From Candidatus Poribacteria bacterium (GTDB taxonomy: Bacteria; Poribacteria; WGA-4E; WGA-3G): a stretch of 64,000 bases of DNA. This document shows, one piece after another, positions 3,118 to 62,422 of the stretch. Position 1 is the first letter of the stretch; every line of letters begins with the position of its first letter. The notes under the pieces were generated by a model that searched no databases, was not told where the DNA came from, and was given only the letters and a program-made list of their open reading frames with translations. The stretch lies in NCBI GenBank assembly GCA_026702755.1, contig JAPPBX010000031.1, forward strand, positions 1 through 64,000, written 5' to 3'. The position numbers and the translations under genes were made by a program.

Positions 3118-3118
3118 C

Positions 3119-3205
3119 ACTTGTTATCGACAGTCAGCAATCCGCACTTAGAGACTGTTTGACTGCTGATTACTGACGGCTGATGGTTTCCGATAACTAA
3201 CAACC
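3119..3205. repeat. Dispersed palindromic repeat, family A (copy)
   Basis: The gap between two convergent genes is filled with CAGTCAGC, GCTGATTACTGACGGCTGAT and related words. The same words recur at 4388-4512, 9318-9360, 10770-10866 (inside recD2), 15541-15668 and 20651-20745. It may act as a bidirectional terminator, but this is inference. Confidence 0.5.
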
Positions 3206-3207
3206 AA

Positions 3208-24637: not shown

Positions 24638-25465
24638 TTAATACGAAGATTTAATCTCACCCCAAGTGGTAGAGATTTTGCCTTTGGCATCAACATCAAA
24701 GCCACCGGCACTTGTAACGATAATGCTGTCAATCCGTCCCATCCCCCAACTTTCGTGCCAGACCCCGACGGTGCCTGCACCTTTGTAGGTGGCTTCATCG
24801 GATTCAAGGATAGGATCTCCGAGGTCCGCGGAGGATGCGAACAGGTCGTTGACTTCCTCAAGTAGCATATACCAGATTTTAACGTTGTTGCCTTGGACTT
24901 CAACGCGTCCGAAATAAGCGACAGCATTTGTTTGGTCAAGTCCACCACCCAAGCCGTGTGGCACACCTTCTAATTCCTTACCACCATTTTCACAGCCACA
25001 CTCGCTGAGACATTGTCCGGAAGGACAGCATCCATCTGCAAGATCGCCGAGGATGACTTGCGGTGTTTCATTATAACCGAAGACGACGAGATAACCTTTA
25101 TCGTCGCCTTTTCTGCGGAACTGCACACCGAAACTATCGTCATCCCCAAAGGAGAAAACGACCTGAACAATACCGTCAGTGAAGTCATCCACCCCAGGCA
25201 GTTCAGTGTTCCCGGAAATGCCACATCCTTCAGCGGTTTGTGTCATAGATTTTTTACCGCCGATTTTGCCGCCGTTGAAATCTCCCTCAGCCCAGATAGT
25301 GCCAGCATTTTCTGATTTGTAACTTTTAACGTTGTTCACATTAGCGTTCGGTTTTGCCTCCTTGGAACCAGGCTCAAAATCGGCATAAAACACAACTTGT
25401 CCGCTGGCGTGGAAGGAAACAAATAGACTCAAAGTGAGGATCAAAAGAAAAAAACGTGTTTTCAT
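24638..25465 (-). CDS. Secreted Cys-rich protein with C-terminal TWGEIK tail, paralogue 1
   Basis: The 275-residue protein starts at the ATG at 25465 with a signal peptide (MKTRFFLLILTLSLFVSFHA, cleaved near SGQ). The mature part looks like a jelly-roll or LamG-like beta sandwich: ADFEPGS, DDFTDGIVQVVFSFGDDDSF, RRKGDDKGYLVVFGYNETPQ. A Cys knot ADGCCPSGQCLSECGCENGG sits in the middle. The protein ends GKISTTWGEIKSSY; the same kind of tail ends the paralogue at 25720 and the protein at 37707. The function is unknown. The frame extends to 25516, but the signal peptide and a GGAG site fix the start. Confidence 0.75.
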   Translation of the reverse strand: MKTRFFLLILTLSLFVSFHASGQVVFYADFEPGSKEAKPNANVNNVKSYKSENAGTIWAEGDFNGGKIGGKKSMTQTAEGCGISGNTELPGVDDFTDGIVQVVFSFGDDDSFGVQFRRKGDDKGYLVVFGYNETPQVILGDLADGCCPSGQCLSECGCENGGKELEGVPHGLGGGLDQTNAVAYFGRVEVQGNNVKIWYMLLEEVNDLFASSADLGDPILESDEATYKGAGTVGVWHESWGMGRIDSIIVTSAGGFDVDAKGKISTTWGEIKSSY

Positions 25466-25593
25466 AGCAATATCTCCTCCATTTTCATGGTTGTGTTGCC
25501 GTTTATCCGCAAGCAACAGTACGGCAACGAAGCATTAGGGCACTGCTTAGATACGCATATCCCTAAAGAAGCCCCGTCGTAAAACTAAAGTGG

Positions 25594-25676
25594 TGTTGGG
25601 TGAGGCATTGACCTCACCCGACAAAGATGAATCATGCGATGCAGGGCGAACAGGGTTTGGGAACCCCGCCCTGCAA
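25594..25676 (-). terminator. Two hairpins downstream of the second Cys-rich gene
   Basis: GCAGGGC (25641-25647) pairs with GCCCTGC (25668-25674), and GGGTGAGG (25598-25605) pairs with CCTCACCC (25612-25619). A T-run is weak, so they may be terminators or transcript-stabilising hairpins. Confidence 0.5.
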
Positions 25677-25719
25677 TGCCAGTTGAATTTAGGGTATGAG
25701 CCTATATCAGGGAAGGAGA

Positions 25720-26544
25720 CTAATAGCTGCTTTTAACGTCCGCCCACGTCGTGGAAAGCTTAGCGTGTGGGTCGACTGCTACGGTGCCGCCTGGACCAGT
25801 AACGAGAAGGCTACCAACTCTTCCATTGCCCCAACTTTCATGCCAGAGCCCGACGGTGCCGGGTCCTAAATCATCCGCGCCATCGTATTCAGCAATCGGA
25901 TCGCCGAGTTCACTTGAATCCGCAAAGATATCCGGCACATCATCGAGTGGCATATACCAAACCTCAATGAGGCTTCCACTGACTTGAACGCGCGCAAAAT
26001 AGGCAACACTGTTGTCTTGGGTGAGGTCCGCACCTAAGCCGTGGTCAACACCGACGAGTTCATTCCCGCCGTTTTCGCAGCTACACTCGCTGAGACATTG
26101 TCCTGAGGGGCAGCATCCATCTGCAAGGCTCCCGATGATAACCTGAGGGGTTTCGTTATAGCCAAATACGACGAGATAGCCGCTATCATCGCCGACGCGA
26201 CGTAACATGAATCCAACACTGTCATCGTCGTTCCACGAAAAAACCGCCTGGATGATACCGTCGGAGAAGTCATCAACACCGGGGAGTGGTGTGTCCCCGG
26301 AGATGCCGCACCCTTCGGCACTTTGATGTAAAGCAGTTCCACCATCGGGGAAGTCAGTTGACTCCACCCAAACCGTTCCTGCGTTTTCCGGTACGTAATT
26401 TGCCGGGTCGTTGACGCTGGCATCCGGGACTGCGTCAGAGGAACCTGCTTCAAAATCAGCAAAGAAAATTATCTGTGCACTCGCGGTACTTATCAGCATG
26501 ACTGAAAAAAGCGCGATGAGCATCAGAAAGTGTGTTCTTTTCAT
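25720..26544 (-). CDS. Secreted Cys-rich protein with C-terminal TWADVK tail, paralogue 2
   Basis: The 274-residue protein is a close paralogue of the neighbouring gene. It has a signal peptide (MKRTHFLMLIALFSVMLIST, cleaved after ASA), the opening QIIFFADFEAGS, the Cys-rich loop ADGCCPSGQCLSECSCENGG and the tail AKLSTTWADVKSSY. The many Asp-Gly turns and alternating strands suggest a concanavalin-like beta sandwich that may bind calcium or sugar. Five of six Cys lie within 16 residues, suggesting disulfides or a metal site. I do not recognise a named family. The two genes are separate transcripts, each with its own hairpin. Confidence 0.75.
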   Translation of the reverse strand: MKRTHFLMLIALFSVMLISTASAQIIFFADFEAGSSDAVPDASVNDPANYVPENAGTVWVESTDFPDGGTALHQSAEGCGISGDTPLPGVDDFSDGIIQAVFSWNDDDSVGFMLRRVGDDSGYLVVFGYNETPQVIIGSLADGCCPSGQCLSECSCENGGNELVGVDHGLGADLTQDNSVAYFARVQVSGSLIEVWYMPLDDVPDIFADSSELGDPIAEYDGADDLGPGTVGLWHESWGNGRVGSLLVTGPGGTVAVDPHAKLSTTWADVKSSY

Positions 26545-27225
26545 TTTCTACTCCTTTATTGATTGATTTTCCACAAGTGAAGTAATCTGTGCTAAAGTCA
26601 TTTTCGTCTGGCAAAACAGACTTTCATAGATAGGACGATTTCTTAACGAAATCGATGTTTAACACTTTAGCAAAAATGCATTTTTCTGTCAAGAAACAAA
26701 AAAGACAGAATCCTTATTTTTTTAACGCAAGTTTCACTTAAAACATTTCATGTGTTAAAAATGAAGGTTTATTGTTTGAATCACAGATTACGCGGATTAT
26801 ACAGGTGACACGGCTTTTATAGTAAAACCCGCAATTACCTATACACCAACGCAAGGGCGAGGATACAATCCTCGCCAGCGGTGGTGGGTGCTTGTTTCCT
26901 GACGAACTATAAACATATTTTCGGATTCTACTATAAAGCACACAAACACTGAAAGCAGAAGTGTGTGGTAGCACAAACTATTAGTTCCCGTAGGTTGGGT
27001 TGAGCAGTAAAAAAATTATATCATGTTCAATGGAGATCTTGTTTCTTGGTAACCTACTTGTAGAAAACAGATATAGCGAAACCCAACGAATCAAACACCG
27101 AGGGAAGAGGAGGAGCGAGGTTGGGAAACCTCGCCAGCGAAAATGGTGCGTCTACGGAAGGAGGCGAGGTTAGGAAACCTCGCCAGTGAAGGAAAATTGG
27201 AAGGATTAATCGGAAAAGTGGAAAC
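26545..27225. other. Intergenic region with repeats
   Basis: No gene is seen in these 680 bases. The left part is A+T rich and should hold the promoter of the Cys-rich gene. TTTGAATCACAGATTACGCG at 26775 starts a common dispersed word. Hairpin copies of GCGAGG...CCTCGCCAGCG lie at 26855-26883, 27115-27140 and 27171-27192. Confidence 0.5.
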
Positions 27226-30171
27226 CTACTGATTCGCACGCTGTAAGCGGAATACACCATTGTGCTTTGTGCCGATGTAGAATGTATCGCCATCAACAGC
27301 GAGAGAAGTCACCGTGTGCGGTGGGACTGGCGCAATGTGTTTCCATGTGCCCGTTTGGTTATCCACCTGATAAACACCGCTATCACAGATACCGTAAAGG
27401 GTTAAGCCGTCAGCGACAATCCGATCCATAAGGAGCATTTTCCCGTTAGTATCAGTGAGCGCGTGCCAGACCTCGCCGTTGAGCGAACGCATGACTCCTG
27501 CATCCGTTAAGATATAGACGGTTGAACCCGCAAATACGATCTCTTTGAAATACACAAATGGAAAGGGAAGGCTTTCGGTGATGTCGTTCCAAGTGTCTCC
27601 ATTGTCCAGAGACTGAAAGAGTTCACCCTCCCGTTTACCAGCATAGACAACGTCCCCCGAAACGCCAAGCGTGAGTCCTTTAGCAGACTCATCAGGTAAA
27701 GTGAGGAACCCGCTATCTTCTAAACCTGTATAGTGCCACGCTGTTTCGCCGCGCCGCCACCTGTAAAGTTTATGTCTATATTCCATGAAGACGGTATCGT
27801 CAGCCAATGTAAACGTTCCGTTCGTCCTCCATTCTTCAACGATACGGTCCCCGCCGGCTGACCACAACTCTTGTGCTTTATCAAGATCGGCATCATTCTC
27901 TCCCATTTTTATGACCTTTTTCTCTAATTCCGTGTGTAAGGTGTTCTCTTCAAAATCTGGGACACCTTCAACCGGTAGAAACAGATCGCCAGCGTCAGAG
28001 AGTTGAAAGAGTGTAACGTCCGTAAGTTCACTATTACTTGCATAGAGTACACCATTGGCTGTTGCGACTTTCGCTTTCGCTCCCTCCAATGAAGCATTTT
28101 CGTCAGGACTCAAGCCAATGGATTCCCACGACTCACCGCCATCTGTAGACTTGAGCATTCCGGTAGGTGTTAGCGCGTAGAGAACATTTTCGACCGTAAC
28201 CAGACTCTGAACATGGGAACTCACAAGTCCGCTCATAAAGGGGTGCCACGTGAAACCGCCATCCGTTGAACGTATTATCTCAGAAGGATGGTAATCCGTT
28301 TTGTAAAAATTGTTTTCATCCAATGCGACAACAGGAGACGCACCAGACGTACCAGACGTATGCCGGTCGCGTCCCGGATCCACCCACGTCTTACCATGGT
28401 CGTATGAGAGTAGAGCACCACCGGTACCCACTACCATAAGTGTCCCTCCAACTGGCACAACTTCAACAGCGGCTATTAACTTGACAGGATGTTGGTGAGA
28501 AGGGGGCGTAATATCGGTCCAAGAATCGCCGAGGTCGGTAGAAAAGAGAACTGAGGCATGAGGGGTCCACCCCGGCATCCCTCGTGGACCGATGATTGTT
28601 CCGATGTAAAGCTTATCTTCAGCAACTGCCAACGATTTGACACCTTGTTTCGATTGTGTCGGCACCGTCAATTTTTTCCAATTATCGGTAAACCGGAAAA
28701 GTCCGGCACTCGCCCCAACAAAGAGGATATTATTAACGGCGAGCGCGTCGTAAATGCGGAAATTAGGATCCCCTGCCTCCGGTACGACATCGGATCGCAA
28801 GACATGCCCTATGGATTCCCACTGCTTCCCAGCATCCTGAGAACGAAACACCTCCGTTCTGAGAATGAGGTACATCGTTATATCAACACTCTGTGCGCTG
28901 CGTTCTTGAGGTGCATCTGTGATAACCAAAGCGACGGCACGTCCTTTGGGACGGTCACTGAGGACCTCCCATGTTCTGCCATCATCAATTGAAGTTAAGA
29001 CTTCATCGGTCGTGAGGAGATAGAGAGTATCGCCGTGTTCCGCCATAACTCCCGCAAATTCCCGATTCGGACCGGCAGAACTAACAAACGTCCACGCGTC
29101 CGTTTTTTCGGCGAGTTTATAAAGCCCTGTTTTTGTAATAGTGTAGAGGGTTTGGTCGGACGCAAGAAAGAGTTCAGCTGCTGAAACGCCTCCGGGTCCC
29201 CTCGTTTGGACCCATTGCGGTTCTGCTATCGAAACGTCCACTTCATCCGTCTGCGCGGCTGCAATGAGAAACGATTCCATTTGGAATCCAGCCCTACCGT
29301 TTTTACCCGGTATATCGGCTCTTCCAAATTGGGTCAGTCGGTCAGATTTGTGTTCCAACGCTCGAACAACAGGTGCCTCAACCAATTCTATTGTCATTTC
29401 CGATGCGGCATCCAAGTTGTAGGGCTGCTGGAAACGCGACAACGCACGAGGTCCCATCCCGACCATCAAGATAACCAAAAAGGTCGAGGCGAATGAAAAT
29501 CCCCACGGCATCCAAGGTTTGCTTACGGAAGGAGATGCTGGTTTAATACGAGCGATTTCACGCATGATGTTCTCAGTTAAGGTCGGTGGTAATCGAAAGA
29601 TACCTGAGAAAGTATGGAGCAAATGCTCTTGCTCTTTCAATCGCTTGCGGGCACGGCGAAGTCGGCTTCTAATTGTGTTCGGCGATACACCCAAAAACGC
29701 GCTAACCTCCTCGCTTGTCATTTCTGCCAGATAAAACAGTGTGACAACAGTGCGCTCGCTTTCAGGCAGCTTTTGGAGCAGGCGTTTGACGAGTTCGCGC
29801 TGGTGGTCAATAGAGGCTTCTTCGTCACGCGCTGCTGTATATCGAGCATAACATAACTCCTCTAACTCGGTTGTGGGCATCGCATCCAGGGATGTCGTTG
29901 ATACCTGCTTCTTTCGGAGCCATGAGATACAGTGCCGCGTGGTGATTACATAGAGCCATCCCGGAAAATGATCTGGCGGTTTCAGCGTCGATAACTTTTT
30001 ATACACTTTCAGGAAAATATCCTGTGTGATTTCTTCGGCGGTATGGAAATCACCTATCTTCCGCCAGACAAGGGTATGAACCCATTTCTGGTATTTCTTG
30101 ACGAGCGTGGTAAATGCACCCTCGTCTCCATCTAAAGTCCGTTGAATTAATGCAACATCATTCTCTTTCAT
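27226..30171 (-). CDS. Membrane-bound ECF sigma factor fused to an Asp-box beta-propeller sensor, copy 1
   Basis: The 981-residue protein has three parts. Residues 1-190 are a complete ECF-type sigma factor: region 2 with QDIFLKVYKKL and FPGWLYVITTRHCISWL, region 4 with LPESERTVVTLFYLAEM and VSPNTIRSRLRRARKRL. A linker leads to one membrane helix at about 219-240 (WGFSFASTFLVILMVGMG). Residues 300-981 contain at least seven Asp-box motifs (DGGESW, DDGRTW, DLGDSW, DNGDTW and others), typical of BNR or photosynthesis-assembly-type propellers. Sigma and a presumed extracytoplasmic sensor are therefore one chain with no separate anti-sigma gene. The start has a GGAGGGAG site. A promoter-like element shared with the other fusion lies at 30216-30244. 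Confidence 0.88.
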   Translation of the reverse strand: MKENDVALIQRTLDGDEGAFTTLVKKYQKWVHTLVWRKIGDFHTAEEITQDIFLKVYKKLSTLKPPDHFPGWLYVITTRHCISWLRKKQVSTTSLDAMPTTELEELCYARYTAARDEEASIDHQRELVKRLLQKLPESERTVVTLFYLAEMTSEEVSAFLGVSPNTIRSRLRRARKRLKEQEHLLHTFSGIFRLPPTLTENIMREIARIKPASPSVSKPWMPWGFSFASTFLVILMVGMGPRALSRFQQPYNLDAASEMTIELVEAPVVRALEHKSDRLTQFGRADIPGKNGRAGFQMESFLIAAAQTDEVDVSIAEPQWVQTRGPGGVSAAELFLASDQTLYTITKTGLYKLAEKTDAWTFVSSAGPNREFAGVMAEHGDTLYLLTTDEVLTSIDDGRTWEVLSDRPKGRAVALVITDAPQERSAQSVDITMYLILRTEVFRSQDAGKQWESIGHVLRSDVVPEAGDPNFRIYDALAVNNILFVGASAGLFRFTDNWKKLTVPTQSKQGVKSLAVAEDKLYIGTIIGPRGMPGWTPHASVLFSTDLGDSWTDITPPSHQHPVKLIAAVEVVPVGGTLMVVGTGGALLSYDHGKTWVDPGRDRHTSGTSGASPVVALDENNFYKTDYHPSEIIRSTDGGFTWHPFMSGLVSSHVQSLVTVENVLYALTPTGMLKSTDGGESWESIGLSPDENASLEGAKAKVATANGVLYASNSELTDVTLFQLSDAGDLFLPVEGVPDFEENTLHTELEKKVIKMGENDADLDKAQELWSAGGDRIVEEWRTNGTFTLADDTVFMEYRHKLYRWRRGETAWHYTGLEDSGFLTLPDESAKGLTLGVSGDVVYAGKREGELFQSLDNGDTWNDITESLPFPFVYFKEIVFAGSTVYILTDAGVMRSLNGEVWHALTDTNGKMLLMDRIVADGLTLYGICDSGVYQVDNQTGTWKHIAPVPPHTVTSLAVDGDTFYIGTKHNGVFRLQRANQ

Positions 30172-30215
30172 CAGTCTCCCTCCGAAAAAATAAATAATAA
30201 GGCTTCATAATATAG

Positions 30216-30244
30216 TAACGCACTTTGGAGACCGAAATGGTGCA
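30216..30244 (-). promoter_or_regulatory. Candidate ECF-type promoter upstream of fusion copy 1
   Basis: On the minus strand TGCACCATTTCGGTCTCC precedes TGCGTTA. The 29-base block aligns without gaps to 35804-35832, upstream of the other fusion gene. A start just downstream would leave a leader of about 40 bases. Autoregulation by the encoded sigma factor is inference. Confidence 0.45.
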
Positions 30245-30288
30245 TAAAATGCAATTTTCGGAAGAATGCCTGTTTAAAGATGCAAAGG

Positions 30289-30313
30289 CGAGGTTGCAAA
30301 CCTCGCCCAGCAA
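30289..30313. repeat. CTCGCC hairpin repeat, family B (copy)
   Basis: GGCGAGGTTGCAAACCTCGCC is a perfect hairpin of the family also seen at 27115-27192, 39825-39855 and 40661-40686. Confidence 0.6.
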
Positions 30314-30356
30314 AAGGAAAATCAAGGACACATAAATGGAAAAGCGGAGAAAATAT

Positions 30357-32567
30357 TTATCGACTATCCCGCTGAAAACGGAGTATGCCGCTGTGTTTTG
30401 TACCGATGTAAAGCACTTCGTCAGCAATAGCGAGAGAAGTTGCCGCATAAGGTGCTTCCGAGGCGATCCGTCTCCATGTATCCATCTGATCATCAACCTG
30501 ATAAACGCCATTATCACGCACGCCGTAAAGGATTGCGTCCTCAGCTGCAATCCAATCCATAAGGAGCGGATCTCCGTCACTATCGGTGAGTGTCTGCCAG
30601 ACCTCGCTATTAAGCGAACGCATGACTCCCATATCCGTTGAAATATAGACCGTTGAACCCGCAAATACGATGTCCTTGAAGTATTCAAATGGAAAAGCGA
30701 GATTTTCGGTGATGTCGTTCCAAGTATCTCCGTTGTCCAAGGATTGGAAAAGTTCGCCCTCTCGCTTACCTGCATAGACAATGTTCCTCGAAACCGCAAG
30801 GGTGAATCCTTTTCCGTCAATAGGTGGGAATTCTCCTTGATCTTCCAAACCGGTGTAGTGCCACGCTGTTTCGCCGGGTCGCCATCTGAAAAGTTTCCGT
30901 CGGTGCTCCATAAACACAGTTTCCCCAGCGAGGACAAACCCTCCATTTCTTGTGTCCTCTTCAGCGATAAAGAGTAAACTCTCTCGCCACTGCCGCTCTG
31001 TTTCACGAACATTGACGTTGGTTTCTCTGGCTTCCCTAAGCCTTTTCTTCCATTCAACATACAGATTATCTTCCTTGAAATCCGGTATGCCTTGCACAGG
31101 TACCAGTTCATTACTTTCGACAGGAAGGTGCAAAAGTTGCGTTCGATGACTGGCAATGCTGCTTACATAGAGGGTTTCATCGGTTGTTTCAATCCTCGGA
31201 ATCAGGAGTTTACCTCCGCCACTCACGTTAATAGCCTCCCAAGATTCACCTCTGTTCGCCGATTTAGCAACCTTACCACCGCTAACTACATAGAGCATGT
31301 TTTTGTCTGCAATCAGATTCTGTACATCGGCACTCACGAGTCCCTTTACAAAGGGATGCCACGAGCGACCGCCATCTGTTGAGCGTGTTACCCCAGAGAG
31401 TTGAGATTTGAAAAAATTATTTTCATCCAAGGCTACAACAGGCAAGAAGCCACCCGTAAAGGCATGCGGGGCGCGTCCTGGATCCTCCCATGTCCTGCCA
31501 TGATCATAAGAAAGCAGAGCCCCACCGGGACCTATCACCATAAGTGTGTCTCCAACGGAAACGATCTTAACTGTGCCGATTAATTTAACTGGATGTTCAG
31601 CGGTGCTTGGGGTGATGTCGGTCCATGAATCTCCGAAGTCGGTTGAATAGAAGAGTGAACAATGAGGGGCATCCGGCTGATCTGAAATCGTTGCGACATA
31701 GAGTCTATCTTCGGTAGCTGCCAACGAATTGACACCTGCAAGGGTCGGTAGCGTTACTTTATTCCAATCGCCGGTAAACCGAAAAAGTCCGCGACTCGTT
31801 CCCACAAAGAGGATTCGGTTCGTTCCAGCATAGATGATGTCATCAATGGCAGCAGCGTCATGAATTCTTAATTCAATGTCTGCTTCCTCTGGGGCGATAT
31901 CGGCTCGCAAACTCTCGCCTATAGCGATCCACTGCTTACCTCCATCTTCAGAACGAAATACCTCTGTGCTGAGAACAAGAAACATTGTCATATCAACGCT
32001 CTGGGGGCTGCGTTCTCGAGGGGCATCCGTAACAACCAAGGCGACGGCACTTCCTTCGGGACGGTTACCGAGAGTATCCCATGTTTCACCGCGATCGGTT
32101 GATGCTAAGAGTTTATCCGTTGTGAGAAGATAAAGGGTATTGCCACGTTCTGCCATAATCTGGTCAAACTGCCGATTCGGACCGCCGGAATTAATAAGCG
32201 TCCATTCGTCTGCTTCTTCTGTAAATCGGTAGAGACCCGTCTTTGCAATAAGGTAAAGGGTTCGGTCAGATGCCAGAAAGAGTCCCGGTCTTGAAACGCC
32301 TCCCAATCCCTTCGTCTGGATCCACTGTGACTCTGTTACCAAAACGTCTGCCTTATCTGCGTGTAACGTTCGCGCACCGAAATTGAGCGTCAAACTCACC
32401 AGAAGTACCAATGCGAAAGTGAATACCCACGGCTTACTCACCGAAAGAAAAGCAGACTTGATGGGGAGGGTTTCCCGCATGACGTTCATAGTCAGATATG
32501 GGGAGATTTGGCACCTGAATCTTGCAAGCGAAGATTTGCTTTCAACGCTGCGTATTTTTTCAATCAT
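30357..32567 (-). CDS. Membrane Asp-box propeller protein lacking the sigma domain
   Basis: The 736-residue protein is a paralogue of the two flanking fusion proteins but starts where their linker begins. Its LTMNVMRETLPIK...LSVSKPW aligns with LTENIMREIARIK...PSVSKPW of the fusions. One membrane helix follows (FTFALVLLVSLTLNFGA), then at least seven Asp-box motifs (DRGETW, DGGKQW, DFGDSW, DHGRTW, DGGRSW, NRGESW, DNGDTW). The ATG at 32567 has AAGGAG six bases upstream, so the short form is a real gene and not a broken one. It lies 49 bases after the upstream fusion gene and is probably co-transcribed with it. It could act as a sensor subunit or decoy for the fused sigma proteins. Confidence 0.82.
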   Translation of the reverse strand: MIEKIRSVESKSSLARFRCQISPYLTMNVMRETLPIKSAFLSVSKPWVFTFALVLLVSLTLNFGARTLHADKADVLVTESQWIQTKGLGGVSRPGLFLASDRTLYLIAKTGLYRFTEEADEWTLINSGGPNRQFDQIMAERGNTLYLLTTDKLLASTDRGETWDTLGNRPEGSAVALVVTDAPRERSPQSVDMTMFLVLSTEVFRSEDGGKQWIAIGESLRADIAPEEADIELRIHDAAAIDDIIYAGTNRILFVGTSRGLFRFTGDWNKVTLPTLAGVNSLAATEDRLYVATISDQPDAPHCSLFYSTDFGDSWTDITPSTAEHPVKLIGTVKIVSVGDTLMVIGPGGALLSYDHGRTWEDPGRAPHAFTGGFLPVVALDENNFFKSQLSGVTRSTDGGRSWHPFVKGLVSADVQNLIADKNMLYVVSGGKVAKSANRGESWEAINVSGGGKLLIPRIETTDETLYVSSIASHRTQLLHLPVESNELVPVQGIPDFKEDNLYVEWKKRLREARETNVNVRETERQWRESLLFIAEEDTRNGGFVLAGETVFMEHRRKLFRWRPGETAWHYTGLEDQGEFPPIDGKGFTLAVSRNIVYAGKREGELFQSLDNGDTWNDITENLAFPFEYFKDIVFAGSTVYISTDMGVMRSLNSEVWQTLTDSDGDPLLMDWIAAEDAILYGVRDNGVYQVDDQMDTWRRIASEAPYAATSLAIADEVLYIGTKHSGILRFQRDSR

Positions 32568-32616
32568 GGATTTCTCCTTAATGGGAAAGCGGGTAAAAAT
32601 CCCACCCACCGATAAA

Positions 32617-35553
32617 CTACAAGTTGGACAAGGGCAAACTTAAAAGCCCACGGTGTTCAGTGCCAACATAGAGAACATTCCCCACAACAACGAGAGACGT
32701 TACTCGTCCAAGAACTTCTGAGGTAATCTGCTCCCAGATGCCTGTGCTGTTGTTCAGTCGGTAAACACCTGTTTGGGAAACACCGTAGAGGGTTGTGCCA
32801 TCAACTGCCAATTGGCGCATGGCAATCGGAGTATATTTTGAATCGGTGAGTGTATGCCAGTTTTCGCCATCGCTTGACACGGCAACACCGTCTTTTGTTG
32901 AAACGTATACCGTGTTATCCACAAAGCGTATTTCTCTGAAGTGTGGCAATTTTTTTAGGAGTTGGTCTTGCGATTCTGCTCTATTAAGCTGAAAGGGGAA
33001 GTCTGCGGTAATATCTCTCCAAGTGTCTCCGCCATCCAAGGATTGGAAGAGGCTGCCGTCACTTTTTCCGAGATACATGATCTTTCCTGAGACAGCGAAT
33101 TGGAACCCGTCAGTCGCATAGAAGTCCCCGAATACGGGTGCATCTTGGACCCCTGTGTCGTGCCATTCACGATCTCCACGTGCCCATCGGTAGAGTTTCC
33201 GTTCGTATTCAATGTAGAACGCGTTTTCGCTGACAGCGAACTCGCCTGTTGTTCGGACGATGGCCTCCTTGATGCCGAGTCGATAGTCAGATTCATCATT
33301 TGATAAACCTAAGCCGCGCTCGGCGAGTGTATCGGCGGTGTTTACCAGCCCCTCCAACCATTCGCCGTGGCTCGGATCCACATAAACAGGCATTCCCTCA
33401 ATATGGATCAGCGTATCAGTATTGGCGGGTAAATGGAGCAGGCAGTTTGTGCTGCCGCCCTGCTTTGTTCTGACGTAAAGCGAATCTCCCACGACTGTCA
33501 TATTCGACAATTTCAACTCACCGAGCGATTTATTTGGCGAGAGTGGTAAATTCGTGTCCATCTGCGTCCACTGATTTCCACCATCGATAGATTTAGCGAC
33601 ACCTTTATTCGTTACAGCGTAGAGCACGTTGTTAACCTGTGCAAGATCGAGAATTTGGGGTTCTGCTATACCCGTTGTGAACGAATGCCAACTACTGCCG
33701 CCATCAGTTGAACGTCCGAGACTACTCCCGAGTGCGACGAAAAAAGTATTCTCATCTAAAGCGATCGCTGGAGCAAAACCGAGCGCAAGCGCGTGCTTGT
33801 GGAAACCGAGGTATTCCCATGTGTCGCCAGCATCTCTTGAACCTAACACGCCAGCACCCAATACCAAAAGGGTTTCACCTGCCGCTACAAGCTTGACAGA
33901 TCCGATCGTCAATGGTGACATTCCTACTTTTAGATTCATGGGCGTTATATCAGTCCAAGATGCCCCAAAGTCGCTTGAAGCAAAGAGCGAACCAGATTTC
34001 TGATCTCCCTGCCTTGGGGCACTGATGTAGATTCTATCGTCAGCGACTGCTAACGCGTCAATAGATTGTGCCTGTGCAACAGATAATTTCTCCCATACAC
34101 CTGAATTAAGCCGATAGAGACCCTGCTTTGTCCCTAAAAAGGGGATGTTCCCAACGGTAACGGCAGTATGTATCTCTGGTGCGGTCAAGCCATCGTTAAA
34201 GGCGTTCCATGCTTTACCAGTATCTGTCGAACGAAACACACCGTCTGCAAGAACGAGGTACATTTCAATCTGGGCATCCTGCGACCAGCGTAACTTGCTG
34301 GGGATAAGTAGTGCGATGGCACGTCCGCGTGGCCGTGGACCGAGGAAATGCAATGTCACGCCGTGATCCGTTGACGCGAGCAGATCGGTCTCAGTAACAA
34401 TATAGAGCGTATCTTTCCCTTCTGCCATCGGCATCCTATAAGGTGTAACGGGAAGTGCGGCGTTAATGAGTGTCCATTCAGTGTTGTCAGCTGCTAACTG
34501 GTAGAGCCGAGTGCCTCCAATCGCATAGACCTCTTTTTGAGATGTGGCAAATAAGTTCCCGACACCGCCCCCCTCCGGTCCCCTTGTTGGCATCCATTGT
34601 GGTTCTGTCTTTCGTATCTTTGTTGTATCCGCTGCTACTGTCAACAGTCCAGCATCGGCTTTTGAAACGGTACCACTACCGTCTTTTCCCGGAGCATTAC
34701 CCTTTCCAAACTGATTTCTCACATCCAGTTCTCGTTTCAGTTCAAACACAACGGGTGCGTCAACCAATTCAACTGTCATCTCCGAGGTTGCATCCAAGTC
34801 GTAGGGTTGCTGGAAGCGAGATAACGTCTGGGGACCGAATCCCATCATCAGGATAACCAAAAGCGTTGAAGAAAAGGAGAGTGCCCACGGCACCCAAGGT
34901 TTACCCACAGAAGGCGATGTCGGCTTGATACGGGCAATTTCACGCATGACCTTCTCGGTTAGGGTTTGCGGCAATTGGAAAATGCTTGGGGCATCGTGGA
35001 GCAGATGTTCTTGCTTCTCCAACCGCTTGCGGGCGCGGTGGAGACGACTCTTAATAGTGTTTGGGGATACCCCCAAGAATTCGCTAATGTTTTCGCAAGA
35101 CATTTCTGCCAGATAAAACAGTGTTACAACAGTGCGCTCGCTCTCTGGGAGTTTTTGGAGCAGGCGTTTGACGATGCCGCGCTGGTGTTCAACAGATGCT
35201 TCTTCGTTATGTGCTGCCTCATATCGTGCATAACATAACTCCTCTAACTCGGTTGTAGGCATCGCATCCAGGGAGGTCGTTGATACCCTCTTCTTTCGGA
35301 GCCATGTGATACAGTGCCGCGTCGCAATTACATAGAGCCACCCTGGAAAACGATCCGGTGGTTTCAACGTCGATAACTTTTTGTACACCTTCAAAAAAAT
35401 ATCCTGTGTGATTTCCTCGGCGATATGGAAATCCCCTATTTTTCGCCAGACCAAAGTGTGAATCTGCTTTTGGTATTTGTTCACGAGTGCTGTAAATGCG
35501 CGTTGGTCACCCTCTAAAGTCCGTCGAATCAGGTCAACATCGCTTCTCTCCAT
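32617..35553 (-). CDS. Membrane-bound ECF sigma factor fused to an Asp-box beta-propeller sensor, copy 2
   Basis: The protein has 978 residues from the ATG at 35553, chosen for its GGGAGGAGA site; the frame is open to 35646 without a site. The layout matches copy 1: sigma region 2 (QDIFLKVYKKL, FPGWLYVIATRHCITWL), region 4 (LPESERTVVTLFYLAEM, VSPNTIKSRLHRARKRL), one membrane helix near 220-242 (ALSFSSTLLVILMMGFG) and a long Asp-box region (DTGKAW, DFGASW, DAGDTW, DGGSSW, DGGNQW, DGGDTW). The sigma and linker parts are far more alike between copies than the propellers, suggesting constant signalling output with diverging inputs. A MITE-like element separates it from its promoter-like element. 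Confidence 0.88.
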   Translation of the reverse strand: MERSDVDLIRRTLEGDQRAFTALVNKYQKQIHTLVWRKIGDFHIAEEITQDIFLKVYKKLSTLKPPDRFPGWLYVIATRHCITWLRKKRVSTTSLDAMPTTELEELCYARYEAAHNEEASVEHQRGIVKRLLQKLPESERTVVTLFYLAEMSCENISEFLGVSPNTIKSRLHRARKRLEKQEHLLHDAPSIFQLPQTLTEKVMREIARIKPTSPSVGKPWVPWALSFSSTLLVILMMGFGPQTLSRFQQPYDLDATSEMTVELVDAPVVFELKRELDVRNQFGKGNAPGKDGSGTVSKADAGLLTVAADTTKIRKTEPQWMPTRGPEGGGVGNLFATSQKEVYAIGGTRLYQLAADNTEWTLINAALPVTPYRMPMAEGKDTLYIVTETDLLASTDHGVTLHFLGPRPRGRAIALLIPSKLRWSQDAQIEMYLVLADGVFRSTDTGKAWNAFNDGLTAPEIHTAVTVGNIPFLGTKQGLYRLNSGVWEKLSVAQAQSIDALAVADDRIYISAPRQGDQKSGSLFASSDFGASWTDITPMNLKVGMSPLTIGSVKLVAAGETLLVLGAGVLGSRDAGDTWEYLGFHKHALALGFAPAIALDENTFFVALGSSLGRSTDGGSSWHSFTTGIAEPQILDLAQVNNVLYAVTNKGVAKSIDGGNQWTQMDTNLPLSPNKSLGELKLSNMTVVGDSLYVRTKQGGSTNCLLHLPANTDTLIHIEGMPVYVDPSHGEWLEGLVNTADTLAERGLGLSNDESDYRLGIKEAIVRTTGEFAVSENAFYIEYERKLYRWARGDREWHDTGVQDAPVFGDFYATDGFQFAVSGKIMYLGKSDGSLFQSLDGGDTWRDITADFPFQLNRAESQDQLLKKLPHFREIRFVDNTVYVSTKDGVAVSSDGENWHTLTDSKYTPIAMRQLAVDGTTLYGVSQTGVYRLNNSTGIWEQITSEVLGRVTSLVVVGNVLYVGTEHRGLLSLPLSNL

Positions 35554-35631
35554 GACTCTCCTCCCGAAAATATAGTGAAACCTACAATTACGATCAATGT
35601 GATTTTTCGGTAGGTAAATGCCTATATACTC

Positions 35632-35750
35632 AGGACTTACGCACATTGAGTAAATATCGGATGTTTAGACGCAAAAAGCGGTAATTTCTATCCTTTAAAC
35701 CCCCTAAATCCCCTTATCAGGGGGACTTTAAGAGGGAATGCGTAAATCCT
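35632..35750. mobile_element. MITE-like element with terminal inverted repeats
   Basis: AGGACTTACGCA at the left end is matched by TGCGTAAATCCT at the right end, 119 bases apart. Flanking CTATATACT (35622-35630) and ATATACT (35751-35757) look like a target duplication. The interior has a CCCCCTAAATCCCCTTATCA hairpin and no coding capacity. Partial ends CAGGACTTACACA occur at 39808 and 50283. Confidence 0.65.
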
Positions 35751-35803
35751 ATATACTTTTAGACTTTACCATAAAAACAAAAAATAGTGCTTTCATAGGT
35801 TAA

Positions 35804-35832
35804 TAACGCGTCTATGAGACTGAAAGGTTGCA
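35804..35832 (-). promoter_or_regulatory. Candidate ECF-type promoter upstream of fusion copy 2
   Basis: On the minus strand TGCAACCTTTCAGTCTCATA precedes GACGCGTTA. TGCAACCTTT resembles -35 elements of several ECF groups, and the block aligns with 30216-30244. It lies about 250 bases from the start codon, partly because of the MITE-like insertion. Confidence 0.45.
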
Positions 35833-35981
35833 TAAAATACGATTTTCAAGACAAATAAGCAATTTCTGTGCCAGTGCCAGAGGTCTGCCTGTGTAGAATT
35901 CTGCCCGGAAAGGGGCAACTGTTATTCTTAAATGCACGAAAAAGGGCATCTCACGGAGATGGAAAGGGAGCGTACACCAGA

Positions 35982-36006
35982 AAAGGCGCGTAACGAACGC
36001 GCCTTT
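35982..36006 (-). terminator. Hairpin terminator downstream of the cytochrome-like lipoprotein gene
   Basis: AAAGGCGCG and CGCGCCTTT form a perfect 9-base stem with a 7-base loop, followed on the minus strand by TTTTCTGG. It probably ends transcription of the gene at 36109-36630. Confidence 0.65.
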
Positions 36007-36108
36007 CTAACATTCTACAACATACGCTTGGAGGTAGGTTGGTAACGTTGGTTCCGATATTTTTTCACTTGACAGAACGGAGCAGAACTGCTATGCTGTC
36101 GCTAAGTT

Positions 36109-36630
36109 TTAGTTATTCTCGGCACCTTCGTCAATCCAGTCAATGAAAAGTTGAATCTGGTCACCGTCTAATGGAGGACCACCGGGGGGCATGCCGCCAC
36201 CATCAATGCGTTTGACGACGAGACTTCCCTTGCCATCGCCAGCGACAAACCCGGGACCGTTCCCGCCACCTTTTTTGAAGGTATCGTATTTGCTGAGGTC
36301 GAGTCCAGCAACACCGGGGGCGGCGTGGCACCCTGCAACGGCGCATCGCTCAGCAAGAATGGGTTGAATGTCGTCCTTAAAAGAGACACCCTCTACAACA
36401 GGTTCTTCGACAGGCGGTGGATCACCAACCGGTGGTTCAGGCACTGGGGTTTGTGTAGAGGGAGGCGTTGTTGTCGGTTGAAGGACATCTGCCATACCAG
36501 TGTCTTCCGTCACATCGCCCTCGTCACCGCAGCTGGCGATGAAAATTGTAGCGAGAAAGAGACTGATAGCAAACACAGGGATAGTGAGTGTGTGTCGGTT
36601 ACGCATACGTATAGAAAATGAATCGATCAC
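36109..36630 (-). CDS. Lipoprotein with a cytochrome c-like CX4CH site
   Basis: The 173-residue protein starts at a GTG (36630) with an AGGAGA site; an ATG at 36609 is possible. A hydrophobic segment ends in a lipobox-like IFIASC, so it is likely a lipoprotein. A Pro/Thr-rich linker (about residues 50-80) leads to a domain beginning VSFKDDIQPILAERC, like the planctomycete-type cytochrome c family. The haem-like motif is CAVAGCH, with four residues between the Cys instead of two. LDLSKYDTFKKGGGNGP and GGMPPGG, with a possible axial Met, follow. The role may be electron transfer in the periplasm. Whether haem binds through CX4CH is uncertain. Confidence 0.75.
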   Translation of the reverse strand: MIDSFSIRMRNRHTLTIPVFAISLFLATIFIASCGDEGDVTEDTGMADVLQPTTTPPSTQTPVPEPPVGDPPPVEEPVVEGVSFKDDIQPILAERCAVAGCHAAPGVAGLDLSKYDTFKKGGGNGPGFVAGDGKGSLVVKRIDGGGMPPGGPPLDGDQIQLFIDWIDEGAENN

Positions 36631-36720
36631 GATAGGATTCTCCTTTTCTGAGAAATGTGTTTTTTACTAAAGATTTCGTCATTTTGTATATAGAATACCA
36701 CGATACGGAGGAGATGTCAA

Positions 36721-37665
36721 ATGAAAATTCTGATTAACACTGATATTACCTCGGAACAACAGCAGCAGATTGAATCCGTTTCTGAGGAACTTTCGCTTGT
36801 GCGTCCACAGAATTCGGAAGAGGCATTGCGCGAAATTGTGGATACCGACATTGTGTTGGGTGGGTTCAATCGCTCTCTTTTTGAGAATGCGCAACAACTC
36901 AAATGGGTGCAAGTACTCTCCGCTGGCGTTGACGGCTTGCTGTTTCCCGAATTTGTTGAGAGCGATGTTATCCTAACGAGCGCGAAAGGGTTTGTGGGAC
37001 CCCATTTGGCAGATCAGACGTGGGCTTTACTTTTAGGTCTCCTCCGCGGTATCGGACGTTCAGTACGCGAGCGGACATGGGACAATCGGATGTCGATCCG
37101 TTTGGCAACGTGGGAGTTAAGCGAACGGACACTGGGTATCGTCGGACTCGGCGGCACAGGTATCGACGTTGCGCGCCGCGCACAAGGATTCGATATGCGC
37201 GTCATCGCTGTTGACCCAGAGACGATTGAGGCTCCGTCGTTTGTCCACGAAGTTTGGAAAATGGATCGGTTCCATGACCTTCTGTCAGAATCAGATGTTG
37301 TCGCTATCTGCGCGCCGCTGACACCGGAGACGCACGGCATGTTCGACGATGCGGCGTTTGAACAGATGAAATCACACGCGTTGCTTATCAACGTCACACG
37401 CGGCAAAATTGTAGATGGACCTGCACTACTTCGCGCGCTCACTTCGGGAAGCATCGGCGGTGCGGGATTGGATGTCACGCCTGAAGAACCGCTGCCTACG
37501 GACAGTCCGTTATGGGATCTGCCGAATGTGATTATTACACCACACGTCGCCGGTGGTTCACCCATCCGCTTGGATCGATCGGTTGGGCTTTTCTGTGATA
37601 ACTTAGAACGACTTCTCGTTGGCAAACCGCTTCTCAGCATAATTGATAAAGAAAAAGGCTATTAG
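36721..37665 (+). CDS. D-isomer-specific 2-hydroxyacid dehydrogenase
   Basis: The 314-residue protein has the family's NAD-binding motif GIVGLGGTGIDVARRAQGF near residue 140, with Asp at the end of the second strand (AVDPET). The substrate Arg lies in NVTRGKIVDG, the Glu near TPEEPLP, and the catalytic His in TPHVAGG. Such enzymes reduce 2-keto acids to D-2-hydroxy acids, as in glyoxylate or phosphoglycerate metabolism; the exact substrate cannot be told. The start follows GGAGGAGATGTCAA. It is divergent from the cytochrome-like lipoprotein gene and convergent with the next gene. Confidence 0.9.
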   Translation: MKILINTDITSEQQQQIESVSEELSLVRPQNSEEALREIVDTDIVLGGFNRSLFENAQQLKWVQVLSAGVDGLLFPEFVESDVILTSAKGFVGPHLADQTWALLLGLLRGIGRSVRERTWDNRMSIRLATWELSERTLGIVGLGGTGIDVARRAQGFDMRVIAVDPETIEAPSFVHEVWKMDRFHDLLSESDVVAICAPLTPETHGMFDDAAFEQMKSHALLINVTRGKIVDGPALLRALTSGSIGGAGLDVTPEEPLPTDSPLWDLPNVIITPHVAGGSPIRLDRSVGLFCDNLERLLVGKPLLSIIDKEKGY

Positions 37666-37706
37666 AAGCGAATTTAGGCTGTGCACGTGGGCGTAACTCG
37701 TTCAGA

Positions 37707-38753
37707 TTAGTTCTTTGAACGCTTGATCGCTCCCCACGTCACAGCCATCTTATTTAGTGGTTGTACTGGCAACGAATCACCAACCCAGCGCGGCAAAATA
37801 GGGAGCCTGTCCTGTAAAGAAACCAAATGCCGAACTCTCTGAGTTGCAAACGAGTAGATGTAGATCCCATAATCACTAAAAATCATATCAGTGGAGAATA
37901 CAAGATACTTGCCATTCGGTGACCAATCTACTTGATAGAACTGTAGCGAGTCAAGATCTGCTATTTTATTTGCTATTTTTTGAATGTTTATCTCATCAAC
38001 ATTCGCTGCAACAAATATGCCTTCATGAGCGCGATCGGTTACTTTTTGGTGGTTCTTTCCATTAACATCCGCAACAAATACACCCTCATGAACCGATGTG
38101 TAGGCTATCTTTTTGCCGTTTGGTGAGAAACTATAGAACGGATAACGGCTTAAGAAACCCGCCCCTTCATGGAACAGCAAATGTTTCTTGGCTTTTTCCT
38201 GACCATTGATTTTTGACTCCCAGATTTCCTGCCGCCTGTCTGGTGCCGAGAGATTGTAAAACACAGATTGCGCATCTGGTGCCCAGACAAAGCCTATTGG
38301 ATTCTCACCAATTGGGTGCGGTAACTTTCGCTTCCGTCGTCCATCCGGTGAAATTAGAAAAATTTCGGTGTCCACGCCACGCCCCCCTCTTATCCTTTGT
38401 GGGCTGCCAGCATACACAATCCAACGTCCATCCGGGGACCAAGAAATATCCACGTAAGAATGGACTTGCAATATGATGGAACGAATTTTCTTACCCGTGC
38501 GGAGGTCTCGGATATGGAGAACATTACGGCGATCGGGGTCGCTGTCTACCGCTGCCAAAAAACGACCATCCGGTGAAGGCGTAGAAATACCCTCTTCCGC
38601 AATGCGCGTAGGTATGGTATCATTCGGACGCATCATATAGGTCGTACTACGATAGGCGTAGACAATCACACCTTCTGCCCAACAGAACAGACCTGTACAA
38701 AAACTCAACAGAATTATGAGCGAAAACAGTAGCACCAAACGACGCGTGTTCAT
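37707..38753 (-). CDS. Secreted TolB/WD40-like propeller protein with TWGAIK tail
   Basis: The 348-residue protein begins with a signal peptide (LVLLFSLIILLSFCTGLFCW, cleaved near AEG). Repeats such as STPSPDGRFLAAVDSDPDRR, ISWSPDGRWIVYAG, FSFSPNGKKIAYTS-like and DWSPNGKYLVFSTD are typical of TolB-type propeller blades (PD40). It ends NKMAVTWGAIKRSKN, which resembles the tails of the two Cys-rich secreted proteins at 24638 and 25720. The location is probably periplasmic or extracellular. The function is unknown. It starts 22 bases after the end of the oxidoreductase gene and may share its transcript. Confidence 0.78.
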   Translation of the reverse strand: MNTRRLVLLFSLIILLSFCTGLFCWAEGVIVYAYRSTTYMMRPNDTIPTRIAEEGISTPSPDGRFLAAVDSDPDRRNVLHIRDLRTGKKIRSIILQVHSYVDISWSPDGRWIVYAGSPQRIRGGRGVDTEIFLISPDGRRKRKLPHPIGENPIGFVWAPDAQSVFYNLSAPDRRQEIWESKINGQEKAKKHLLFHEGAGFLSRYPFYSFSPNGKKIAYTSVHEGVFVADVNGKNHQKVTDRAHEGIFVAANVDEINIQKIANKIADLDSLQFYQVDWSPNGKYLVFSTDMIFSDYGIYIYSFATQRVRHLVSLQDRLPILPRWVGDSLPVQPLNKMAVTWGAIKRSKN

Positions 38754-55971: not shown

Positions 55972-56105
55972 AGTATGTCTGAAGCAGGATTTGCAGGATT
56001 TTAGGATTTTCAGGATGAGAGGCAACCTTCAAGATGGGAAGACGATATGGATCACCCCATATCAAAATCTCACACGTCCATTTTTGACTTTTCACCTATT
56101 TACTG

Positions 56106-56729
56106 TTAGAAGAGTTTTGCTTTTTTATTTCCCCATTTTGGATCAACTGAAGGGGCACAAAGACAGTCACGATTGTGTTCCAAAGCCGCTGCCTCACGGT
56201 AGTGCCCTCCATTTTCCAACTCGCGTATTTTCTGATTATAGTGCCCAATTACGCGTTTGTACACTTCTTCTGCAGTCAAACCGTCGGCAAACGCCCGATC
56301 TATTTCAGAGTCACAGTCAAAAAAAGCATCGGAAATACGCATCAAAACGATGAACTCTTCATTGTACCCAAAGTAGGCAAGGCATCCATGGGTCACAAAG
56401 TCAGGACCAAGTCCAACAGCAGTTTGACAGGCAAAAAAATGAACAACCTTGCCATCCGATTCCTGGGGTTGATAACTCCCTATATCAAAAATAGGGTTGT
56501 AATGTTCTCCCATATAGGTTGTCTCAGTCCCATGTCCTACGCCTGTCATATAAATGATGTCTTGTTGACATGCTTTCGGTTTAACGTGAAAACGACACGC
56601 CAATTTGCCCTGACAACGTACAATTTCAAACCCTCTGGCTTCCAGATAAGGATAAACATGCCGATTTCGATAGTCGTAGGAAGCTTGTGTAATCCTATCG
56701 TAACTGGAATCAATAGCGAGAACTTTCAA
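56106..56729 (-). CDS. Caspase-like (His-Cys) putative protease
   Basis: The 207-residue protein contains IIYMTGVGHGTETTYMG, with a candidate catalytic His near residue 66, and KVVHFFACQTAVGLG, with a candidate Cys near residue 101. A beta strand ending in GHG followed about 35 residues later by a strand ending in AC-x-T/S-A is the hallmark of clan CD proteases (caspase, gingipain and CHAT groups). The rest (SDAFFDCDSEIDRAFADGL, YKRVIGHYNQKIRELENGG) is helical. The start appears to be TTG at 56729; no strong ribosome site is seen. It pairs with the gene at 56798-57136 on the same strand. A role in signalling or defence is inference. Confidence 0.6.
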   Translation of the reverse strand: MKVLAIDSSYDRITQASYDYRNRHVYPYLEARGFEIVRCQGKLACRFHVKPKACQQDIIYMTGVGHGTETTYMGEHYNPIFDIGSYQPQESDGKVVHFFACQTAVGLGPDFVTHGCLAYFGYNEEFIVLMRISDAFFDCDSEIDRAFADGLTAEEVYKRVIGHYNQKIRELENGGHYREAAALEHNRDCLCAPSVDPKWGNKKAKLF

Positions 56730-56797
56730 ATCAGGTTCAATTCAACGCGTCGTTTTTTGCTTGAGACAACGTTTTACCTTTTGTTATTTTTTGTGAA

Positions 56798-57136
56798 CTA
56801 AAGGTTTCCTTCAAGCGCACGTTTGAGTAACATTCTAATCATGCGCTGCTCAACGTCAATTAAGGCGCGCCCTATAGATGTTCGTTTCTGTACTTCGTCA
56901 ATGGCGTGCTTCTTGTCCACTATCCGCTGACCCAGGATACCTACGTCAAATTCGGGGCTTTGCCGAATGCGTTCCGCGACCAATTCTGACTGTTTCTCAA
57001 GGGACAAGCAATTAAATGGAACCTGTGTTGGTGCTCCGTCTACCACTTCTCGTAAAGAAATCCATTGACCATCGGGTGTCATAGCCACTGGACGACTCCA
57101 ATGGTCTTCGTGCGTCATTGGTGCGTTATTCGCCAT
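56798..57136 (-). CDS. Small protein upstream of the caspase-like gene
   Basis: The 112-residue protein starts MANNAPMTHEDHWSRPVAMT, includes WISLREVVDGAPTQVPFNCL, and ends in a helical region (RTSIGRALIDVEQRMIRMLL). I do not recognise the family. GGAGAC precedes the start at 57136. It ends 68 bases before the caspase-like gene on the same strand, suggesting an operon. It could be a regulator or partner of the protease. Confidence 0.6.
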   Translation of the reverse strand: MANNAPMTHEDHWSRPVAMTPDGQWISLREVVDGAPTQVPFNCLSLEKQSELVAERIRQSPEFDVGILGQRIVDKKHAIDEVQKRTSIGRALIDVEQRMIRMLLKRALEGNL

Positions 57137-57237
57137 GAGTGTCTCCTTAAGGACTCAGAACCAAATTATCTTTCTCTTTAAACGGGTTAATGGTATTATA
57201 CCATAAAAAGAAATAAAAGTCAAAAAAGCGAAAAATG

Positions 57238-57558
57238 GTAGATTTTGCTACGTTCGTGCGTGGTGTGGATCCGACAAGTATTGCGAACGTCACGCTTACC
57301 GGTATTAACATTCCTATTCGCATCGCTGAGGCGACGGTTCTACCCGGAGACATCGTTTTAGGGAGACGTGGCGGCGTTATTTTCATTTCGCCGCATTTCG
57401 CACAACAGGTCGTTGAACAGGGTGAGGAGGTGGCTCCCCGAGATCGGTTCGGGCATCAACGACTACGGGAAAGTGTATACACGCCGGGCGAGATAGATCG
57501 CAAATGGTCAGAGGAAATTGAGGCGGACTTTGCGAAATGGCATGTCGATCAAGGATGA
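57238..57558 (+). pseudogene. Duplicated 3' fragment of the RraA-family gene
   Basis: The 106 residues from VDFATFVRGVDPT to the stop repeat the last third of the gene at 55165-55971 with about ten substitutions, such as IPPYF to ISPHF. No upstream part or ribosome site is present; the ATG in front is accidental. Homology begins abruptly at 57238 after an A-rich stretch. It is a partial duplication, probably not translated. Confidence 0.85.
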
Positions 57559-57599
57559 GGGTATTACCTAACTATTTATTGTAGGAAGACTTTGAAGAA

Positions 57600-61096: not shown

Positions 61097-61143
61097 AATC
61101 AGCGTTCAGAGTGAAAGGCAGTATTTCTTTATTATCAGCAGAA

Positions 61144-62382: not shown

Positions 62383-62422
62383 TCTATAAGTTTTGTTAGT
62401 TCTTGATAATCTGGAGAAAATG

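Follow-up and report, generated by a model that had tools for sequence, protein, structure and literature searches.

The 64,000-nucleotide stretch of DNA analyzed here, referred to as the window, corresponds to positions 1-64000 of contig C31 of a Candidatus Poribacteria genome (5.84 Mb in 126 contigs). Three proteins encoded in the window, two paralogues and a propeller (Table 1), end in the same short tail with the consensus V-[ED]-P-x-x-K-L-x-T-x-W-[GA]-x-[LI]-K, and this tail is a C-terminal tag on exported, mostly carbohydrate-binding or propeller proteins. It had been noticed on these three proteins in a first-pass annotation of the window; the observation is genuine, and the tail is far more widespread than first noted. 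It very probably acts as a sorting or anchoring tag. We regard the chances as evenly balanced that it is, in full, a phylum-wide sorting tag for the cell surface that is read by the type IX secretion system (T9SS).

Frequency and anatomy of the tail

As a DNA pattern, T-W-[GA]-x-x-K had 153 matches genome-wide (74 + 79), compared to 12 (8 + 4) for the reversed pattern. The gene sample covered 1.88 of the 5.84 Mb (103 stretches, 1407 genes called); genes were called with a simple script, which trims starts, and signal peptides were assigned by a hydropathy rule. Many of the sampled stretches were picked for containing matches, and only the subset C72-C91 (20 contigs, 332 kb, 254 called genes) was picked without regard to the motif. 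Across the sample, 82 genes had the motif no more than 20 residues from the C-terminus, and nine further occurrences lay elsewhere, a C-terminal rate 156-fold over the internal rate. The unselected subset contained five C-terminal and no internal occurrences of the strict motif, and the tail profile described below identified nine genes in it, from which about 158 tail genes per genome are extrapolated, provided that C72-C91 are typical.

Alignment of the 78 strict matches on the tryptophan gave column counts of V 58, E/D 45, and P/A 66, followed by two loose positions, then K 59, L 57, A/T 62, and T 54, and finally T, W, G/A, any residue, L/I (68), and K. In the consensus, V-[ED]-P-x-x forms a linker ahead of the basic motif K-L-x-T-x-W-[GA]-x-[LI]-K. 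The chain stops one to six residues past the final lysine, that is, 7-12 residues from the threonine inclusive. A 16-column tail profile trained on the same 78 matches recovered 104 C-termini at E<1, 26 of which did not carry the strict motif, and had no matches elsewhere in proteins. Profile matches were assigned to 113 of the 1407 genes, which are called tail genes in the following. The mean charge of the last ten residues was +1.6 in tail genes, compared to about 0 in other genes.

Proteins that carry the tail

Signal peptides were called by rule in 94 of the 113 tail genes and in 358 of the 1294 other genes (Fisher p 1.3e-31), and this enrichment identifies the tail as a C-terminal tag on exported proteins. 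The proteome-wide comparison that the first-pass annotation had proposed, carried out on the 1.88 Mb, thus found the motif both C-terminal and enriched among proteins with signal peptides. When the 19 tail genes without a rule-called signal peptide were read by hand, seven gained one from a GTG or TTG start and two were assigned one by eye; five of the remaining genes were truncated by the edge of a stretch or contig, four were fragments, and one was a false match. The enrichment was weaker in C72-C91 alone (6/9 tail genes versus 72/245 others, p 0.026). A lipobox was present in 23 of the 325 other signal-peptide proteins and in none of the 94 signal-peptide tail proteins.

The 107 carriers longer than 150 residues formed 24 BLAST clusters, one of which was a false match. 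The major clusters were LamG (54 members), PD40 (11), and LTD (6), and the smaller ones contained Fn3, Kelch, CBM9, F5/8C, or NPCBM domains or no known domain. Unrelated folds bear the tail, which rules out common ancestry of the carriers as its sole cause.

AlphaFold models were examined for two carriers. In the propeller of the window (mean predicted local distance difference test score [pLDDT] 65.6, with only four aligned sequences), tail residues 327-348 had pLDDT values below 50 and were placed outside the propeller. The model of one LamG carrier (mean pLDDT 82.4) had values below 50 at residues 248-256 and 260-262 and a weak, low-confidence helix across the motif. In both models, the tail is predicted to lie outside the main fold, the propeller in one case and the LamG jelly roll in the other. 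A Foldseek search with the LamG model returned an ordinary concanavalin A-like jelly roll, the nearest structure being a domain of a GH43 arabinanase; the lower ranks were occupied by the lectin-like halves of unrelated toxins, a common fold that implies no relation.

Since half of the carriers (54/107) belong to one LamG family, duplication explains many of the tail copies. Nevertheless, it is highly improbable that the tail has no role in sorting and only supports the folding or stability of the domains or was carried along with them by duplication and recombination. With the false match excluded, about 22 sequence clusters besides LamG also bear the tail, a spread that already suggests independent gain by unrelated families; the two modelled folds differ, and the tail is predicted to lie outside both; and nearly all of its carriers are exported proteins. 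A second alternative is that the tail serves retention or anchoring only, as a short basic amphipathic peptide that would attach proteins to lipopolysaccharide, membrane, or cell wall and need no machinery of its own. The net charge of the ends, the clustering of L, W, and L on the same side of a helix, and the weak helix predicted in the LamG model would fit such a peptide. We consider it improbable, as the conservation of W-[GA]-x-[LIVM]-K is more specific than charge and amphipathicity alone would require, and the helix prediction is of low confidence.

Conservation and spread across Poribacteria

Relatives of the three window proteins retained the tail. At 30 loci with relatives of the second paralogue (25720-26544), it ended 59 of 60 matching open frames, and the remaining frame was cut off. 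For the propeller, W-[GA]-x-[LIVMF]-[KR] ended 42 of 45 matching frames, some with as little as about 25% identity; fragments or broken frames accounted for the remaining three. The tail is kept even as the carrier domains diverge. The tail of the first paralogue was kept in close relatives. Alignment A1 was assembled from tail carriers, and its tail conservation therefore follows from selection.

All 84 genomes of the phylum showed an excess of the pattern over the reversed control, at least 2.6-fold in each (lowest, 26 versus 10). When a stricter motif was searched with one genome per species, 77 of the 80 loci listed carried a Poribacteria label, and all 89 stricter-pattern matches among these loci were located within 24 codons of a stop. 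Chance as the origin of the shared tail is ruled out by this proximity to stops, the C-terminal placement in proteins, and the 153 matches versus 12 for the reversed pattern. The three loci with other labels were L168 (Pseudomonadota), L181 (Planctomycetota), and L204 (Deltaproteobacteria), whose genomes had 5, 8, and 14 pattern matches, compared to 2, 6, and 4 in the control. These loci are read as misbinned or stray contigs, with some doubt for the genome of L204. With only a small excess in these three genomes, the tag is restricted to Poribacteria almost entirely, if not completely, among the loci listed. On the L204 contig labelled Deltaproteobacteria, an esterase-like gene at about 2650-3717(-) has the tail just beyond its stop, in another frame.

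Some variation was seen in G023, a distant genome whose genus has few strict matches. Over 400 kb of this genome, most propellers had WGx[IV]K or a similar ending without the full TTW, and non-propeller carriers retained TTTWG or TTAWG. Because the propellers keep WGx[IV]K without TTW, the core of the motif is P...W-[GA]-x-[LIVM]-K.

Comparison with known C-terminal tags

The tail has the features of a general C-terminal sorting tag, namely a short conserved C-terminal motif that is found on unrelated exported proteins and is rare elsewhere. PEP-CTERM, GlyGly-CTERM, and MYXO-CTERM each contain a hydrophobic membrane segment. Such a membrane-like segment, which is also a trait of LPXTG, was scored as a 17-residue stretch above 1.6 on the Kyte-Doolittle scale within the last 45 residues, and it was present in 0 of the 113 tails. 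Cysteine, which is invariant in the MYXO-CTERM motif, was absent from the last 25 residues of all 113 tail genes. These systems (PMC1569441, PMC3237569, PMC11980579) share with the tail a short C-terminal tag on many otherwise unrelated exported proteins, and MYXO-CTERM is phylum-wide like the Poribacteria tail. The analogy to PEP-CTERM drawn in the first-pass annotation therefore holds in logic only, the tail being without a membrane helix. Its proposal of a sorting or anchoring signal stands insofar as the tail marks exported proteins; a function in sorting or anchoring we infer from the distribution.

The NCBIfam and Pfam models gave no match to five tails at E values up to 10, a result that does not prove the absence of a known model, as HMMER filters may discard very short matches. 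In the literature searched, which was without subscription papers and preprints, no report was found of a Poribacteria C-terminal sorting signal or of six spellings of the tail motif. We conclude that the tail is a new class among C-terminal sorting tags.

The type IX secretion system as candidate reader of the tail

The genome that encodes the tail also contains T9SS machinery, with SprA, PorV-family, and PorU-like proteins, of which SprA mostly, and the PorU-like proteins throughout, scored below the curated cut-offs. A SprA-like open frame of 2263 amino acids was found in the genome itself (E 1.2e-17, under the curated cut-off), and SprA-like frames were present in 83 of the 84 phylum genomes, one of them above the cut-off. 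PorV_fam had 19 matches in the genome, and 16 PorV-family genes were called in the 1.88 Mb sample. Three PorU-like C25 proteins of about 1700-2160 amino acids, each with a CTD-like C-terminal end (CTD, C-terminal domain of T9SS cargo), scored 388, 341, and 395 bits against the PorU cut-off of 420. The CTD family TIGR04183 had 59 matches in the genome and was present in all 84 phylum genomes. The PorU-like sortases sit on L340, L346, and L347, three in one genome, beside about 16 PorV-family genes; one PorU per genome is usual.

Kamke et al. (2014; PMC3909097) described T9SS sorting domains in Poribacteria single-cell genomes, with the structural Por genes not found. This gap is reopened by the SprA, PorV-family, and PorU-like genes now found. 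Further co-mentions of Poribacteria and type IX or T9SS in the literature searched appeared to be incidental only.

In the mechanism that we propose, Sec would export the carrier, and the tail would stay free outside the folded domain. Recognition of the free tail by one common receptor would then lead either to transport of the protein across the outer membrane or to its attachment there. That so many folds bear one motif is most simply explained by a shared receptor. Because the carriers are already exported by Sec and lack both lipid and membrane anchors, the step that it serves is most likely surface delivery or anchoring. The most likely receptor would be the T9SS of the same cells (SprA translocon, PorV-family shuttles, and PorU-like sortases), and the tail would represent a second, minimal signal for smaller cargo beside the canonical immunoglobulin (Ig)-like CTD. 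The T9SS fits this role best: it is present, reads C-termini, and handles such cargo, and one domain family alternates between tail and CTD.

In that domain family, five members carried the tail and two carried a CTD, as if both were interchangeable within it. The PD40/WD40 group contained 11 tails, one CTD, and nine unlabelled members, five of which had a weaker tail by eye. Tail proteins were mostly 200-300 amino acids long and CTD proteins mostly longer than 500. Modules like the one preceding the tail in LTD proteins precede the T9SS CTD in other phyla. With the T9SS CTD (TIGR04183), the tail shares the position as a C-terminal signal, the use on Sec-exported surface proteins, a basic end, and many cargo families per genome. 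It differs in its length of about 16-20 residues, its predicted lack of structure, and the W-[GA]-x-[LI]-K motif.

A precedent for shortened signals comes from Prevotella intermedia, whose T9SS cargo includes short CTDs of 40-55 residues that retain a three-stranded sheet along with motifs B, D (GxY), and E (PMC11969387); these were the shortest T9SS signals in the literature searched. These resemble the tail as a shortened T9SS-type signal beside long CTDs in one organism, and they differ in that the tail has none of these motifs and no sheet, save the basic residue near its end. Work cited in the same source showed an absolute requirement only for the last 22 residues of the CTD of Hbp35 in the secretion and attachment of green fluorescent protein.

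Several observations weigh against a reading of the tail by the T9SS. The two models, in which the tail has fewer than 25 residues, low pLDDT, and no strands, suggest that it lacks the Ig-like beta-sandwich of the CTD, and in aligned columns motif D (GxY) was missing, with a motif E-like basic residue present near the end. An origin of the tail as a degenerate last CTD strand was not supported, since hhalign returned a two-column match no better than three column-shuffled controls. A tail gene was next to 1 of the 16 PorV-family genes and within five genes of two more, so that PorV adjacency, when considered as a pointer to the receptor, favors CTD genes over tail genes: a CTD gene was the next called gene to five of the 16 and stood one gene further away from a sixth. 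Lineage-wise drift of a receptor together with its ligands was unsupported, as the tail variation in G023 tracks protein family and not genome. GldM gave no match in a search whose controls also stayed silent. CTD and tail did not overlap in any protein (45 CTD versus 113 tail genes), but both occupy the C-terminus, and because both need it, this exclusivity is weak evidence. Finally, the T9SS occurs in the whole phylum, which offers no discriminating genome without it, and co-occurrence of tail and T9SS is uninformative for that reason.

One of the PorV-family genes was observed beside a tail-bearing gene at L062:2614-4666, where the two are divergent neighbors on a short contig.

Matches to TIGR04183 were absent from the three window proteins and from five 30-residue tails, and a CTD profile built from the genome itself matched 0 of the 113 tail genes. 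The lack of sequence likeness to the CTD in the hhalign comparison, together with PorV-family genes adjoining CTD genes more often than tail genes, would also agree with recognition of the tag by an outer-membrane receptor or translocon that is specific to Poribacteria and has no relation to the T9SS. The T9SS has a wider distribution than Poribacteria and is thus wider than the tag, whose excess is slight outside the phylum among the loci listed; the TIGR04183 search also matched Bacteroides ihuae. We nevertheless consider a separate receptor rather unlikely, given that the T9SS is already in the same genomes and that one domain family uses either CTD or tail; no candidate receptor turned up, and no systematic search for one was made. 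With the T9SS retained as the preferred reader, the tail is not classed as a T9SS CTD, yet it may function like one.

Tail-bearing genes and their surroundings in the window

All three tails listed in the first-pass annotation were found where it had placed them, and its description of the carriers also held (Table 1). The first two are paralogues with about 60% identity, and the third is an unrelated PD40 propeller. No Pfam or NCBIfam matches were obtained for the two paralogues. The signal peptides ascribed to all three agree with Sec-like N-termini, assigned to the paralogues by the hydropathy rule. The propeller was missed by the gene-calling script, and its N-terminus was judged without this rule, from the sequence and from an AlphaFold helix at residues 3-24.

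Table 1 Tail-bearing genes of the window, with their C-terminal ends and approximate tail positions
Feature	Positions	Strand	C-terminal end	Tail	Tail position (about)
Secreted protein, 275 aa	24638-25465	-	ISTTWGEIKSSY	DVDAKGKISTTWGEIKSSY	24641-24697
Paralogue of 24638-25465, 274 aa	25720-26544	-	LSTTWADVKSSY	VDPHAKLSTTWADVKSSY	25723-25776
Secreted PD40 beta-propeller, 348 aa	37707-38753	-	MAVTWGAIKRSKN	VQPLNKMAVTWGAIKRSKN	37710-37766

Other genes lie between the second paralogue and the propeller. Two long open reading frames, 27226-30171(-) and 32617-35646(-), encode an extracytoplasmic function (ECF)-type sigma factor (Sigma70_r2 and r4) fused to a C-terminal BNR/Vps10-like propeller, the two parts being separated by a hydrophobic stretch identified by eye. 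Similar-looking N-termini begin long open reading frames at L340:13325-16330 and L041:7201. A BNR/Vps10-like propeller without the sigma part is encoded at 30357-32609(-), and a short exported protein at 36109-36630(-) showed a weak match to the planctomycete cytochrome c PSCyt1. The G+C content was 0.42-0.45 across 56001-64000, compared to about 0.49 elsewhere in the window.

Implications

A more specific form of the proposal, which we put forward only tentatively, is that these bacteria use two T9SS labels, an Ig-like CTD on large proteins and an unfolded tail of about 16 residues, each read by separate PorV/PorU paralogues. The tail, with K-L-x-T-x-W-[GA]-x-[LI]-K, would then possibly serve roughly 150 or more small carbohydrate-binding or propeller proteins per genome. 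If this were true, the CTD fold would be dispensable for the T9SS, and the tail would be, to our knowledge, the smallest T9SS signal.

As a T9SS signal, the tail would redefine the minimum that this system recognizes; otherwise, it would represent an undescribed surface-sorting route in Poribacteria. Under either reading, annotation would benefit immediately from a model of the tail. Poribacteria are widespread, uncultured sponge symbionts, and one unnamed tag marks a large part of their predicted surface proteome, which points to candidate host-contact proteins.

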